Source of the DNA: Parabacteroides hominis
GTDB taxonomy: Bacteria > Bacteroidota > Bacteroidia > Bacteroidales > Tannerellaceae
Direction: 5' to 3'
Assembly (NCBI RefSeq): GCF_014287585.1
Contig: NZ_JACOOJ010000048.1
Coordinates: 1 to 28,427 of the forward strand
Length of the DNA: 28,427 nt
Shown here: piece after piece, positions 4,867 to 28,427 of the stretch
How positions within the stretch are numbered: the stretch's first letter is position 1
Layout of the letters: the number at the start of each line of letters is the position of its first letter
Position numbers and translations under genes: made by a program
The notes under the pieces: generated by a model
Told to the model about the DNA's origin: nothing
The model's database searches: none
The model's input: the letters and a program-made list of their open reading frames with translations, nothing else

Positions 4867-5514
4867 TTATTGCCTAATTTCTGACATATAAATTCGTTTG
4901 TATTCACTACTTTCTATTGGCTCTATATCGGTTATTTCAAATGAAGTTCCTCTCAAAAAATTGACTTGCGTTTCCTGACCATGATTATAAATCATGTATA
5001 GACAATGTGCTTGCGTTTCATTTTCAGGAAGAGTTTTTATAACATAAACATCACTTCTGTTTTGTTTCCAATCTTCGGTTGTTGTCGTAAGGCTATGGGA
5101 AGGTTGGTATATATCACCTACTTCAAAATTTGTTTTATCTCCAGTTTTAGTAAAACGATATAATATATTTCCGTTAAACTTAGGTGCTTTGTTTATTATA
5201 CTGTTTAGTACAATTTGCATTTCGTGAACAATATCAGGCACTTCTCCATAATAATTGTCATCTCTAAATGCATACGATATATTACCAAGAAAACAGGCTA
5301 ATATCATTTTTTCCACATCGGTTAGCCCATAGCGATTTTCCTTGTCAATGTTGTTGTGCTGAAAACTCTGAAAAGGTTTTTTACCCAAGAAACTCAAAGG
5401 GTCATATGAAAAGCCAAATTCTTCAAGTTCCTCATTCCAAACTAATTCCGGCTCAGCTTGTGAGGATGCTAAATACTTTTCTTCTTCCGATAAGAAATAT
5501 TGAATATCTTTCAT
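4867..5514 (-). CDS. Putative mono-ADP-ribosyltransferase-like protein (AT-rich cargo)
   Basis: 215 residues starting MKDIQYFLSEEEKY. The layout resembles R-S-E type mono-ADP-ribosyltransferases: a helical N-lobe (LTDVEKMILACFLGN), then LYRF with candidate Arg120, an S-T-S-like strand (SLTTTT, 141-146), and a C-terminal ETQVNFLRGTSFEI where the catalytic E-x-E loop is expected. The second, catalytic Glu is replaced by Gln183 (E181-T-Q183). If the fold is right, the protein may be inactive, altered in activity or a binder. It is clearly more AT-rich than both flanks and has its own -7 box (5544-5537), so it looks like a separately acquired cargo gene. It converges with the PcfJ operon. The family call is from pattern recognition only. 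Confidence 0.5.
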   Translation of the reverse strand: MKDIQYFLSEEEKYLASSQAEPELVWNEELEEFGFSYDPLSFLGKKPFQSFQHNNIDKENRYGLTDVEKMILACFLGNISYAFRDDNYYGEVPDIVHEMQIVLNSIINKAPKFNGNILYRFTKTGDKTNFEVGDIYQPSHSLTTTTEDWKQNRSDVYVIKTLPENETQAHCLYMIYNHGQETQVNFLRGTSFEITDIEPIESSEYKRIYMSEIRQ

Positions 5515-24252: not shown

Positions 24253-25416
24253 TTATAAGATATAGGATTTACTATTGGTTGCCACATATATCTGATGCGG
24301 CATTTCTTTTTCGTTGTATATTATTGTATGGTTGTCGCACAAGGTCATTCCCAGCCTTTCAACCACACGGATGGATGCCACGTTTTCCGGTCGGATACTG
24401 CAACAGACAGTTTTCAGTTCCAGCTCTCCAAAGGCGTATTCCAAACACGCGCGGGCGGCTTCCGTACCGTAACCGTTATGCCAGTATGTGTTATCGAGTA
24501 TATAGCCAAGCTCGACAGTCTCGTTCCCGTTTAGGGTACTATTCATCAGACCGGCTTGTCCTATCAATGCGCCGCTTTCTTTCAGTATGACGGCAAAATA
24601 TCCGAACCCGTCCTTGCGGTATCGGATGAGTTGCCTGTTTATCCATTTGCGCACGTCCTTTTTGGTAAAGCCGTGTTCCCAAGCGTACATGACTTCCGGC
24701 TTTCCCATTATGGCAAGGAGTGCGTCCATATCCTTACGGGTTATCCTGCGGATAAGCAGCCGTTCCGTTTCCATGACGACCAGCGATGCGGAATAGGTCT
24801 TTATCTCAAATCCGTCCTCTTTCCATTCCTTCACAAGCCTGTTGATCGTTTCTTCCACCAGACTGTCATAAGCGGCATCGGGAATAACCTTTATAAAAAA
24901 GGTGTCACGGGTTTCTTTCATGACCCATTCGTTGATGTCTTTCAGTTCCTTGCCTTCGGGAATGTAATTCTTGTGTATCATGAACTCGTTGATGTTGTCC
25001 GCCAACAATTCTTCCAACTGATAACGGATGTCATCCTCCAGTTCGGCAAATGGTATGGTTTCCTCTTCATAGATGCCTTCTATTAAAACATCATCCTCTT
25101 CCATATCCTCGTCCGGTGTCTGATTGCCCCGTTTCATGTCCAACATATCCTGCGCGAACTGCCCGGATTCCTTGTCCTTGTACTTCTTGGCATATTTTTC
25201 CAGCAGTTCCCAGTCCTGACGGCTCATCGGGCATTTGAAAACGGCTCGTTCCACCTCGTTACAGCGCACCATGTCCGCCTTCACATCATCGGGAAGCGAC
25301 CGGCATTCCTTGCAGATATGCCGCGAGTGTCCTTTGCCGCTGAATTGCTCGTTGGCTTTGTACTCGCTACAAATCCGACAGTAATGCCCCTGTTGTTTCT
25401 TCTTTTTCGCCACCAT
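24253..25416 (-). CDS. Zinc-finger / GNAT acetyltransferase fusion
   Basis: 387 residues in two parts. Residues 1-~212 begin with a Cys4 zinc-binding motif (C13-x2-C16, C35-x2-C38, with HICKEC) followed by an acidic, helical region rich in D and E. From Met215 the protein is a standard RimJ-like GNAT acetyltransferase: METERLLIRRIT, GALIGQAGLMNS, the acetyl-CoA loop region HNGYGTEAARACLEYAF, and NVASIRVVERLGM. METERLLIRR is exactly how free-standing GNATs begin, so a gene fusion is likely. Substrate unknown; a modified small molecule or protein N-terminus is possible from the family. It starts 9 bases after the upstream regulator gene. Confidence 0.75.
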   Translation of the reverse strand: MVAKKKKQQGHYCRICSEYKANEQFSGKGHSRHICKECRSLPDDVKADMVRCNEVERAVFKCPMSRQDWELLEKYAKKYKDKESGQFAQDMLDMKRGNQTPDEDMEEDDVLIEGIYEEETIPFAELEDDIRYQLEELLADNINEFMIHKNYIPEGKELKDINEWVMKETRDTFFIKVIPDAAYDSLVEETINRLVKEWKEDGFEIKTYSASLVVMETERLLIRRITRKDMDALLAIMGKPEVMYAWEHGFTKKDVRKWINRQLIRYRKDGFGYFAVILKESGALIGQAGLMNSTLNGNETVELGYILDNTYWHNGYGTEAARACLEYAFGELELKTVCCSIRPENVASIRVVERLGMTLCDNHTIIYNEKEMPHQIYVATNSKSYIL

Positions 25417-25425
25417 ACCCCGTTA

Positions 25426-26877
25426 TTATATCAACAGTTCTTTTCCTTTATCGGTAAGACGATATTTCTGCCGGGGATGTTTCGGATTTTCCGGGTAAAT
25501 AGGCTCTACCAAATTCTGCCTTATGGCTGGATACAGATATAGTTCTAAAAAATTACTTTTGTCCTTTAATCCTATCACACACATAATCTCTTTGGTTGAA
25601 AGTGTCTGTGTGCCGATTGCAGACAACACCTTTTCCACCTGTGGGGTAACTGTGGGGTGACTGTGGGGTAACTGTCGGGTAATTGTCGGGTCGTGCCCCA
25701 CAGTTTTTCGGGTATAGCGGAAAATAACCCATACACTATTTCCATCTGTATGAAACTCCGGATCGGGAATGCCGACACGCCGGCATTCGCTTATCATAAG
25801 CCCGATGCCTCGTCCCCAGCTTTCCAGAACCTCGCTTTTATACAGAACATTCGCAATAATCAGGTTTTGAGGTTCTGAATTATGCCCGCTCAATAACTTT
25901 TCCATTGTTATATCCGGCGGAAAAGTTCCACTGTTCTCAATCTCCACACGGTCATCATAGATGGCAATTCCTACCGAACTGCCGGGACGGTGGTATGAGC
26001 GGTGGCAAAGGGCATTTGTGCAGCATTCCCTCAATGCCTTGTAAGGAATCTCAAGCTCTTCCTCCCGATACAAGCCTTCAACTTTGCCCGAAAGGGAAAG
26101 ATGCTTGAAAAAGAACGACATTGCAGTGTCCAGCAGTGTGTAGATATTGCCAGTGGTACGCTGATTGTCTATAAACTCGTCTTTTGTAGTTCCTTTGAAA
26201 CGCGCCAACCGAAGCAGGCACTGGGGATAGAAGTAAAAATCACGACCGAACAAGACTGCGGAAGCATTATTCAGTTTTCCGTCATGTAACAGGTTGAATT
26301 TTTCGAGTATGGTCGGCAAATCCTCCCTTATGGTGGCTTCGGGTAGGCGACCGCACCGGATGCCTCCACGTACCGCTCCCATAATGGCATGTTCATCAAG
26401 GTCAGTAACTTTGATGTCGGGATTCGTCATCGCCTCCCAAGCGTATTTCCCACCTCGCTGCATAAGCAGTTGGTTATATACGTCTTGCGGCATGGAGGAT
26501 GTCACGCTCTCCAATCGAAGATAAGCCCGTCCCTTATAGGAGAACGGACGCATATAACGTTGGCTGTCCGCAGACAAGGCTATCACACTCTTGTCTGTAT
26601 TTTGGATACTGATATACGAAACTTCGAGTGTGGCAAATGGTTCAAAACGCCGGATGGCTTCCGCAATATCACGCTTCGTCTTGTCGCTCACTTCCTGCCC
26701 GATGATCTTTCCTTTGTCGGTCACACCGAACAACACCGTGCCACCTTCGCTGTTAAGGAAAGCGCAGAGCGTTTCCATGCCGCGCTCCAACTGCCCGGTG
26801 GTTTCCTTGAACTCCACCTGCCCGTTTTCCTTTTCGGCTATCAGTTGTTTTACTATATCGAGGTTGTCTATGTTCAT
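25426..26877 (-). CDS. Schlafen/AlbA-type ATP-binding transcriptional regulator
   Basis: 483 residues from ATG 26877 (MNIDNLDIVKQLI). The N-terminal ~130 residues are an AlbA_2/Schlafen-like domain (VEFKETTGQLERGMETLCAFLNSEGGTVLFGV). A C-terminal HATPase-like region follows (YKALRECCTNALCHRSY; SWGRGIGLMISECRR), then a linker encoded by an 11-bp tandem repeat, and a winged-helix-like end (IMCVIGLKDKSNF). Such proteins are annotated as putative transcriptional regulators; targets are unknown. A -7 box TATCTTTG lies 22 bases upstream, so it probably heads a three-gene operon with the GNAT fusion and the AT-rich gene. Confidence 0.83.
   Translation of the reverse strand: MNIDNLDIVKQLIAEKENGQVEFKETTGQLERGMETLCAFLNSEGGTVLFGVTDKGKIIGQEVSDKTKRDIAEAIRRFEPFATLEVSYISIQNTDKSVIALSADSQRYMRPFSYKGRAYLRLESVTSSMPQDVYNQLLMQRGGKYAWEAMTNPDIKVTDLDEHAIMGAVRGGIRCGRLPEATIREDLPTILEKFNLLHDGKLNNASAVLFGRDFYFYPQCLLRLARFKGTTKDEFIDNQRTTGNIYTLLDTAMSFFFKHLSLSGKVEGLYREEELEIPYKALRECCTNALCHRSYHRPGSSVGIAIYDDRVEIENSGTFPPDITMEKLLSGHNSEPQNLIIANVLYKSEVLESWGRGIGLMISECRRVGIPDPEFHTDGNSVWVIFRYTRKTVGHDPTITRQLPHSHPTVTPQVEKVLSAIGTQTLSTKEIMCVIGLKDKSNFLELYLYPAIRQNLVEPIYPENPKHPRQKYRLTDKGKELLI
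25639..25693 (-). repeat. Five-copy 11-bp tandem repeat inside the regulator gene
   Basis: On the plus strand the units are CTGTGGGGTAA, CTGTGGGGTGA, CTGTGGGGTAA, CTGTCGGGTAA and TTGTCGGGTCG. They encode the linker between the ATPase-like and winged-helix parts. Because 11 is not a multiple of 3, gain or loss of a unit shifts the reading frame. Confidence 0.8.
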
Positions 26878-26898
26878 ATTCAATTCGTAACAATTGTA

Positions 26899-26906
26899 CA
26901 AAGATA
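26899..26906 (-). promoter_or_regulatory. -7 promoter box of the AlbA-type regulator gene
   Basis: The minus strand reads TATCTTTG followed by TAC, an exact match to the Bacteroides -7 consensus, 22 bases before the ATG at 26877. A TTG lies about 23 bases upstream as a weak -33. Confidence 0.6.
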
Positions 26907-27858: not shown

Positions 27859-28281
27859 CTATCTTGCTTTTTTATCAAGGATGTAGATAATGCGGCATAC
27901 ACCGTTGGGAAAACTTTTCAAAGAGGAAAGCGTCCAGTGTTGCTCTGGCAGAGCCGACTTAAAAAAATGTCGTCCGCTTCCGGATATGAAAGGAACGGTG
28001 TATAGTATGATTTCATCCACAGCGTGCATACGCAGTAGTCCGTTTATATAGTCTGCCGTGTCCGGTGTGGCTTCCGCGAGGTAACGGATGTTTGTGCCGT
28101 CTTTTCTCCATTCGTGCAGCATTGAAATGGAATAGTCTGGTGTCACGCGGTAAAGGGCGTTCTTCCTGATTTCATCAAGACCGCAACGGTCAAGGCACAA
28201 ATCCTGATGTGCTTTATAATATAACTCTGAAGAAAGACATCCGTCCATCGTCAGTACGGCGAGAATCTGAACTTTACCCAT
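27859..28281 (-). CDS. RibD C-terminal / dihydrofolate-reductase-like protein
   Basis: 140 residues. The N-terminus MGKVQILAVLTMDGCLSS and the segment VDEIILYTVPFISGSGRHFF are typical of RibD C-terminal (DHFR-like) oxidoreductases, usually about 170-190 residues, so this one is short and lacks part of the central fold. It may bind NADPH, but substrate is unknown. Such genes are common near tetQ/rteC in Bacteroides elements. The ATG at 28281 is overlapped by the end of a 45-codon leader ORF, and a terminator-like hairpin lies 28 bases upstream. Confidence 0.7.
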   Translation of the reverse strand: MGKVQILAVLTMDGCLSSELYYKAHQDLCLDRCGLDEIRKNALYRVTPDYSISMLHEWRKDGTNIRYLAEATPDTADYINGLLRMHAVDEIILYTVPFISGSGRHFFKSALPEQHWTLSSLKSFPNGVCRIIYILDKKAR

Positions 28282-28411
28282 AATCGTTACCTTTCATTAG
28301 GCAAGGGCAAAAAAGTAGCGTGCAATTCACACTACCTTCAAGCGATGGCTCTGGTAAAGCCTTTACGGAGAGTACGTGAATGCACGCTATGCGTAAGCAT
28401 AGCATAAGCAT
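28274..28411 (-). CDS. 45-residue leader ORF, Cys-rich
   Basis: The frame opens with ATG 28411 (MLMLCLRIACIHVLSVKA) and stops with TAA at 28276-28274, overlapping the RibD-like gene start by 8 bases. It contains five Cys, with CPC near the end. The frame spans all three competing stems of the leader, so it is more likely a regulatory leader peptide than a functional protein; a ribosome stalling near its start would change which stems form. Met3 is another possible start. No homologue recognised. Confidence 0.4.
   Translation of the reverse strand: MLMLCLRIACIHVLSVKALPEPSLEGSVNCTLLFCPCLMKGNDYG
28309..28335 (-). terminator. Intrinsic terminator in the RibD-like gene leader
   Basis: The minus strand reads GTAGTGTG-AATTG-CACGCTAC (28335-28315), an 8-bp stem with one T-G wobble, followed directly by TTTTTT (28314-28309). 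It precedes the gene rather than following one. Confidence 0.75.
28317..28403 (-). promoter_or_regulatory. Attenuator-like leader with competing stems
   Basis: Three further pairings exist on the minus strand. GCTATGC-TTAC-GCATAGC (28403-28386) is a perfect 7-bp hairpin. GTAAAG/CTTTAC (28366-28354) is a short middle hairpin. AGCGTGCATTCAC (28388-28376) can pair, with one bulge, with GTGAATTGCACGCT (28330-28317), which would consume the terminator's 3' arm and part of its 5' arm. The long pairing overlaps the first hairpin by 3 bases, so the stems are mutually exclusive: the classical protector/antiterminator/terminator arrangement. Confidence 0.55.
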
Positions 28412-28427
28412 CACGCAATCGTCTCCG

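Follow-up and report, generated by a model that had tools for sequence, protein, structure and literature searches.

The window (the whole stretch of DNA analysed here, 28,427 nucleotides from Parabacteroides hominis) carries, on the minus strand and close to its end, a gene for a protein of 140 amino acids that is preceded by a structured leader. The product is a weak match to Pfam RibD_C, barely over the cut-off; no NCBIfam model matched it at an E-value of 0.001 and no solved structure at 0.01, and in two annotated relatives (L089 and L090; L numbers denote loci throughout) the gene is annotated as 'dihydrofolate reductase family protein'. An RteC gene lies downstream within the window. Two further ORFs were noted: one of 387 amino acids at 24256-25416, in which a cysteine-rich N-terminal part (CxxC pairs, by eye) is followed by a GNAT acetyltransferase domain, and one at 25429-26901 with Schlafen AlbA_2, HATPase_c_4 and Fic-like C-terminal domains, which sits between the acetyltransferase gene and rteC. 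The features of the leader and its gene, all on the minus strand, are the following.

28366..28427, minus strand: stem P3, enclosing P4; CGGAGA at 28427-28422 pairs with TCTCCG at 28371-28366, and the stem continues upstream past the end of the window
28420..28425, minus strand: 3' strand of putative helix E, GAGACG; the 5' strand, CGTTTC, lies outside the window (U:V duplex test)
28414..28418, minus strand: 3' strand of putative helix F, TTGCG; the 5' strand, CGCAA, lies outside the window (U:V duplex test)
28373..28417, minus strand: hairpin P4 with its lower stem P4a, the predicted apex of the rod (folding; P4 cells 99.2% paired in 33 distant members)
28274..28411, minus strand: 45-codon ORF with ATG at 28411 and stop at 28276-28274, overlapping the downstream start; judged incidental from the comparison of leaders
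28389-28376, minus strand: 5' strand of helix T, doubling as the 3' strand of P4, TAGCGTGCATTCAC; one bulged base in the pairing with 28330-28316
28347..28361, minus strand: ALT hairpin, GGCT-TTACCAG-AGCC, incompatible with full P2 (compensatory cells)
28350..28358, minus strand: 3' strand of P2; the 5' partner, TCTGGTAAA, lies outside the window and is seen in L001
28337..28345, minus strand: 3' strand of P1; the 5' partner lies outside the window
28335-28315, minus strand: local terminator hairpin of the mobile-element lineage, GTAGTGTG-AATTG-CACGCTAC (sequence and folding)
28330-28316, minus strand: 3' tail, which is the 3' strand of helix T, GTGAATTGCACGCTA; pairs with 28389-28376
28309..28314, minus strand: U run of six T, 27 nt upstream of the ATG
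27859..28281, minus strand: RibD_C/dihydrofolate-reductase-like gene, 140 amino acids (Pfam RibD_C, 24.2 bits against a cut-off of 24.1)

The initial annotation had read this region as an attenuator, and its structural elements were recovered. The terminator hairpin with six T's lies at 28335-28309 on the minus strand, a G+C-containing hairpin with an adjoining U run as in an intrinsic terminator; the hairpin and U run thus precede the gene as described, at a spacing of 27 nt and not the 28 that had been given. A simple mechanical scanner did not return this terminator in its output. The long alternative pairing, placed initially at 28388-28376 with 28330-28317, was found as 28389-28376 with 28330-28316 with one bulge, and the upstream hairpin (28427-28366) and the 45-codon ORF that runs through the leader and overlaps the gene start were confirmed. 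When the minus strand was folded in both proposed states, positions 28282-28427 gave -61.4 kcal/mol against -35.9 +/- 3.8 in 200 shuffles (z -6.75; z -6.5 for the 119-nt stretch ending at the T run), and the same RNA begun past the 5' arm of P4 formed the competing pairing (z -4.8).

The leader is truncated by the end of the window. In relatives it begins about 100 nt farther upstream, between rteB and the gene; in L001 it follows a TATCTTTG box that lies 257 nt upstream of the gene. This box follows the pattern TAnnTTTG, which we take to be the Bacteroides promoter box. The 5' strands of P1, P2, E and F and the promoter box thus lie beyond position 28427 and are visible only in relatives (L001), and since the partner strands of the window's 3' half are outside the window, the initial annotation could not have seen them. 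In L071 the DNA before the TATCTTTG box is unrelated and likeness sets in at about the box, which supports the box as the start of the module; upstream of position 5001 of that locus, two opposite-strand ORFs, recombinase-like by eye, precede the module.

The same neighbourhood recurs at most loci with the gene. Among the best 80 of 106 loci carrying it, an RteB-like gene ends 150-500 nt upstream in 68 and lies farther off in four more, three have little upstream DNA, and an RteC-like gene follows downstream in 78. The order in L089 and L090 is tetQ, an ATP-binding protein, a sigma-54 regulator, the leader, the 'dihydrofolate reductase family' gene, RteC, further genes and mobCBA; by position, the ATP-binding protein and the sigma-54 regulator are rteA and rteB. 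According to the sections of PMC1976400 consulted, RteB activates rteC expression and the regulators are produced only with tetracycline; RNA mapping of a related element is reported in PMC10865816, likewise consulted in part. Several loci depart from this order: L022, L030, L036, L038 and L064 have no rteB match upstream and carry instead a TolC-like ORF (by eye) and an unnamed 304-amino-acid ORF, and L087 and L121 carry the RteB-like gene and the RNA with no RibD-like ORF directly behind. In L041, a window-type leader and gene lie in a contig filed as Actinomycetota, perhaps misbinned.

The leader belongs to a large and widespread Bacteroidota RNA family. A covariance model (R1) of the alignment of 11 close relatives (A1) matched 63 of 393 Bacteroidales genomes and 47 of 206 genera at E-values up to 0.01. 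From 33 of 42 distant matches, nine outliers being omitted, we made a second alignment (A5), and a model built from it without window-type mobile-element members (R2) matched 60 of 395 Bacteroidota genomes at E-values up to 0.001, about 15% of the sample, with a maximum of six matches per genome, and 22 of the 60 carry at least two copies. R2 nevertheless recovers the window's lineage (L001, 45.3 bits, E 6.5e-5). The samples comprised 100, 393 and 395 genomes, and the search was confined to Bacteroidota. For the family-wide tests, two antisense matches were dropped from 172 and the 170 kept were reduced by similarity to a non-redundant set of 108 members, in which L067 and L080 represent the window's close lineage. 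A pattern scan of viral contigs returned 78 matching stretches, four of which are members by R2 (E 0.0001); the IMG/VR viral contigs with family members are L304, L289, L275 and L339. At five loci a single fragment carries the RNA twice: the distance between the copies is about 40 nt in L141 and L142, and 0.5 to 2 kb in L149, L157 and L160.

The family has no match in Rfam 15 and is apparently undescribed. The window (gathering thresholds) and L001 (E up to 5) gave no Rfam 15 match, and 18 and 14 further loci (gathering; E up to 0.5) gave none at the RNA; outside it, a tRNA (L188) and one sub-threshold match (L190) were returned. Neither the leader nor the family is described in the open-access full-text literature consulted, which includes, each in part, PMC8040213, PMC7366714, PMC1976400, PMC10865816 and PMC11697453; an unlabelled earlier sighting may be present among the 3161 candidate RNAs in the supplements of PMC8040213. 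The word 'dihydrofolate' is absent from PMC1976400, as are 'leader' and 'dihydrofolate' from PMC10865816.

Comparative analysis shows that the family has two competing sets of predicted helices, both with compensatory changes. The strands follow one another in the order F/E 5', P1, P2 and P3 5', E/F 3', P4 5', P4 3' (which is also T 5'), P3, P2 and P1 3', the tail (which is also T 3') and the U run, and the sequence of the tail resembles the 5' strand of P4. In predicted fold A, P1, P2, P3 and P4 form one long rod. In predicted fold B, the 5' half is closed on itself through F and E, ALT dismantles P2, and the tail pairs with the 3' strand of P4 to give T beside the U run.

Compensatory changes in homologous leaders, on which the initial annotation had staked its reading, were present among the 11 relatives, the 33 distant members and the 108-member set. 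Among the 11 relatives, 16 of the 55 pairs of the rod and local terminator changed on both sides, against 8.4 in shuffles, and 90.7% of cells were paired (shuffles 86.5%, slid versions 30-50%). In P3, six of nine pairs changed on both sides and 72.6% of cells were paired; the local terminator hairpin was 98.8% paired, with no pair changed on both sides. In the family-wide comparison, helix E had unpaired cells in several relatives. In the alignment of 33 distant members, 18 of the 33 rod pairs changed on both sides, among them nine of the ten in P1, and both-sided changes filled 138 cells against 44.9 in shuffles. T was paired in 97.3% of cells there (shuffles 94.6%, slid versions 36-71%); two of its eight pairs changed on both sides, a count reached by 32 of 500 shuffles, and its five cells with such changes were reached by none of the 500. 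For ALT, 12 both-side-changed cells stand against 4.5 in shuffles (none of 500 reached 12), and its two of four pairs changed on both sides were reached by 428 of 500. Twelve rows of this alignment lack the P2 pair adjoining the ALT base, and seven of them retain the ALT pair. Invariant columns are mostly explained by pairing in one fold or the other; the AA between P1 and P2 is unpaired in both.

We also compared, for each of the 108 members, the duplex energy of its own strands with that of strands swapped between members, a test used because it avoids alignment bias. The rod helices gave z values of -45.8 (P1), -26.1 (P2), -30.9 (P3) and -14.2 (P4), and the helices of the other fold gave -17.9 (E and F together, U:V) and -22.9 (T, W:X). 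Control pairs gave -2.8 (U:X), +1.5 (U:W), 0.0 (V:X), -0.5 (V:Y), -3.2 (U:Y) and -2.4 (V:W); of 2000 permutations, 0 beat U:Y and 4 beat U:X, so the null is inexact and small z values carry little weight. For the tail paired with the stretch behind the U run (X:Y), the value was -7.2. This stretch holds a hairpin with a variable stem and a loop like GGGACU that can pair with the AGUUCC of the tail (L144-L165, L181-L210), and by eye the letters of loop and tail covary in L180, L266 and L267. T itself is spelled in wholly different letters in L264 and L265.

Folding of the 108 members agreed with this picture. The free minimum-energy fold contained the rod in 102. With the rod forbidden, T formed in 94, E/F in 96 and both in 90, and with shuffled tails T formed in 14 of the 108. 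The rod was better than the rod-free fold by a mean of 11.9 kcal/mol, so that equilibrium alone would hardly switch the RNA. It also seems unlikely that both folds coexist as kissing loops: the two strands of E lie at the foot of P1 and at the top of P3, about 25 base pairs apart along the rod, and E could hardly form while the rod is straight.

The signals around these helices fit a transcript. TAnnTTTG occurs within 130 nt upstream in 84 of the 108 members (mean 9.9 and maximum 18 in 200 mononucleotide shuffles), and at least six T in eight occur within 45 nt after P1 in 100; control stretches contained such a run in 40 of 107 and 40 of 108 cases (37%). The U run is imperfect in L182, L183, L186, L193 and L202; with the run broken in several members, termination may not be the only output.

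Which hairpin stands at the U run differs between the family and the window's own lineage. Of the 100 members with a U run, 97 have T, with at least five uninterrupted pairs, beside it, and 23 have a local hairpin of five or more uninterrupted pairs in that place. The pairing that the initial annotation took as the terminator's competitor thus looks, across the family, like the terminator-side stem; the competitor reading may still hold in the window's lineage, where the local hairpin is the stronger of the two. With the rod forbidden, 12 of 14 leaders from the window's and nearest lineages kept the local hairpin (nine pairs) and formed no T, which appeared only in L087 and L088; the letters of T change together in these two. 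In the 108-member folding, run with other bounds, L080 formed T and L067 did not. Forcing T on L001 gave -67.3 kcal/mol against -87.9 in the free fold, about 20 kcal/mol worse. For the window's lineage, therefore, a T switch is supported by the letters of the sequence and not by energy, and the energy models favour the rod together with the local terminator, which would mean termination by default.

The genes behind the RNA are diverse. In the first sample, the nearest downstream ORF was on the same strand for 55 of 64 matches with a downstream ORF, mostly 16-130 nt away. In a separate count, 18 of 94 matches had no same-strand ORF of 70 amino acids within 320 nt. Domains were scanned in 57 of 60 downstream ORFs of the first sample (65 matches; L087, L159 and L163 omitted), giving RibD_C in 19, DHFR_1 in eight, and N6 methylase, GmrSD, RmuC and secreted proteins among the others. 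In the second sample (72 of 76 ORFs, L235, L239, L244 and L270 omitted), a TonB plug domain and CarbopepD_reg_2, as in SusC-like proteins, were each found in 20, along with four response regulators and four sigma factors. RibD_C/DHFR genes thus follow the RNA on mobile elements, and SusC-like proteins, sigma factors, restriction systems and secreted proteins follow it elsewhere. Members of the RibD_C type also stand behind RteC-like genes in other elements (L127, L133, L136, L140). In the SusC group (L184-L209), some 200-300 nt separate the RNA from the SusC-like start, and close to the gene letters of this stretch recur.

We propose that the RNA is a bistable leader controlling read-through into the following gene, the likeliest of the uses considered, though one for which we see the case as evenly balanced. 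The leader RNA would be made from its own promoter, and E/F would form first while the RNA is being made. The 3' half would then either invade E/F, giving the rod, or refold on itself, with ALT, T and the U run making a terminator, and this outcome would decide whether the polymerase continues. For the window's lineage, both folds are predicted to include a strong local hairpin beside the U run, so termination would be the default, and the tail would leave that hairpin only if the 3' strand of P4 were freed from its 5' arm. With 27 nt between the U run and the start codon, a further promoter would hardly fit, so transcription of the gene probably comes through the leader (or from rteB). The balance may be tipped by a protein, a ligand, the speed of transcription or temperature; to judge from the leaders compared, a conserved peptide is not what does so. 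That the tail can also pair with the hairpin beyond the U run (X:Y) counts against the proposed mechanism, since a plain terminator has no need of it. More tentatively, as a possibility to which we give the lesser weight, two self-closed hairpins with complementary loops (E/F and T) may convert into a single rod, with nucleation starting from the ALT loop on the CUGGUA strand. The family might then be a phylum-wide, as yet unnamed class of Bacteroidota switch, plugged into conjugative elements, surface-protein loci, sigma factors and restriction systems and answering one common signal.

A first alternative, which we consider rather unlikely, is that the RNA is a free-standing small RNA with two folds, its own promoter and its own terminator, and that the next gene is a bystander reached by leak-through. 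The promoter box in 84 and the U run in 100 of the 108 members would suit this, as would the multiple copies in 22 of the 60 matching genomes, the gap before the next ORF, which reaches about 300 nt in the SusC-like group, and the retention of the RNA in L087 and L121, where no RibD-like ORF lies directly behind. The arrangement of the genes argues the other way: in 55 of 64 cases the next ORF has the same orientation as the RNA, mostly at 16-130 nt, and the same combination of RNA and gene is found again in a second genome of the genus (L141/L142, L152/L157). The conserved hairpin after the U run, which pairs with the tail, is likewise at odds with a free-standing RNA.

An unlikely reading is that of a metabolite riboswitch, whose rod or internal loops would bind a small molecule and so choose between rod and terminator. 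The bistable architecture with a competing helix and U run, the position before unrelated genes (as with second-messenger riboswitches) and the invariant AA unpaired in both folds are consistent with it; pairing, however, accounts for most of the other invariant columns, the alignment of distant members shows no larger unpaired conserved pocket, the downstream genes share no common pathway, and no Rfam riboswitch family matched.

Very improbable is the mechanism that the initial annotation had favoured, a ribosome-stalling attenuator in which the 45-codon leader peptide senses tetracycline or macrolides. What stood of that interpretation is a regulated-looking leader with a terminator and competing helices; its peptide failed the frame test. 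A frame is open through the leader beside tetQ-rteA-rteB, a 43-residue ORF is present in 68 of 81 loci (all of them copies of five sequence types), and among the 16 distinct leaders of mobile elements from these 81 loci the first ten residues are identical in 15. Those ten codons lie in P4, however, so that pairing alone would conserve them. Across the same 16 leaders the distance between the conserved ATG and the start of the gene, modulo 3, is 1, 0 or 2 in six, six and four, and the peptides are 22, 35, 36, 41, 43, 53, 78 or 181 residues long. With neither frame, stop position nor peptide kept between types (L088 has MLCPWHSV, L087 MLCASIAC), a conserved leader peptide is disfavoured and a translated sensor is unlikely on this comparison; competing terminator and antiterminator helices of the kind an attenuator has were found, a conserved frame with stall codons was not, and the stems are maintained by compensatory changes.

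That the element acts as DNA, a recombination or transfer site folding as a single strand, is hardly to be credited: its location in conjugative elements, its rod-like imperfect palindrome and the paired copies on single fragments in L141, L142, L149, L157 and L160 would fit, but in P1, P2 and T of the distant members 38 G-U cells far exceed three A-C cells, the sense strand folds better than the antisense in 105 of 108 members, a promoter box lies upstream and a U run downstream, and both alternative folds are conserved.

As a putative bistable leader, the family resembles transcription attenuators and riboswitch expression platforms in being a 5' leader with a promoter box and competing helices, one of which ends at a U run. 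It differs from them in having no conserved leader peptide and no Rfam match, in involving the whole rod, and in keeping both folds across a phylum before unrelated genes. The tetQ-rteA-rteB leader of CTnDOT reportedly works by translational attenuation, with hairpins Hp1 and Hp8 and a leader peptide of three residues. Compared by that description, it shares with ours the mobile element and the competing hairpins, and differs in acting on translation through its short peptide, whereas the present leader has a U run and no conserved peptide. In hok-type mRNAs, which form metastable hairpins, an early 5' hairpin is later displaced by long-range pairing. The present family is alike in that respect, but its sequence, hosts and genes are others and no toxin gene was seen.

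Within the phylum there is also FopS of Bacteroides thetaiotaomicron, which, according to the consulted part of PMC11697453, comprises paralogous RNAs that have sigma-ABfr promoters and a terminator and are associated with SusC genes. These traits (paralogues in Bacteroidota, promoter and terminator, the SusC link) recall our family; as that part of the source describes it, however, FopS has a single-stranded 5' part and one terminator hairpin and is deposited in Rfam. None of the loci scanned here matched a family of Rfam 15 at the RNA.

The RNA occurs in about 15% of the sampled genomes of the phylum (60 of 395) and adjoins the regulators of conjugative elements that carry tetQ. In the Bacteroidota, one of the major groups in the human gut, few regulatory RNA classes have to our knowledge been described. 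Because both folds can be read from the sequence, the RNA is prevalent and it lies beside these regulators, the idea of a common signal and of a possible control step of tetQ-carrying elements is directly testable.
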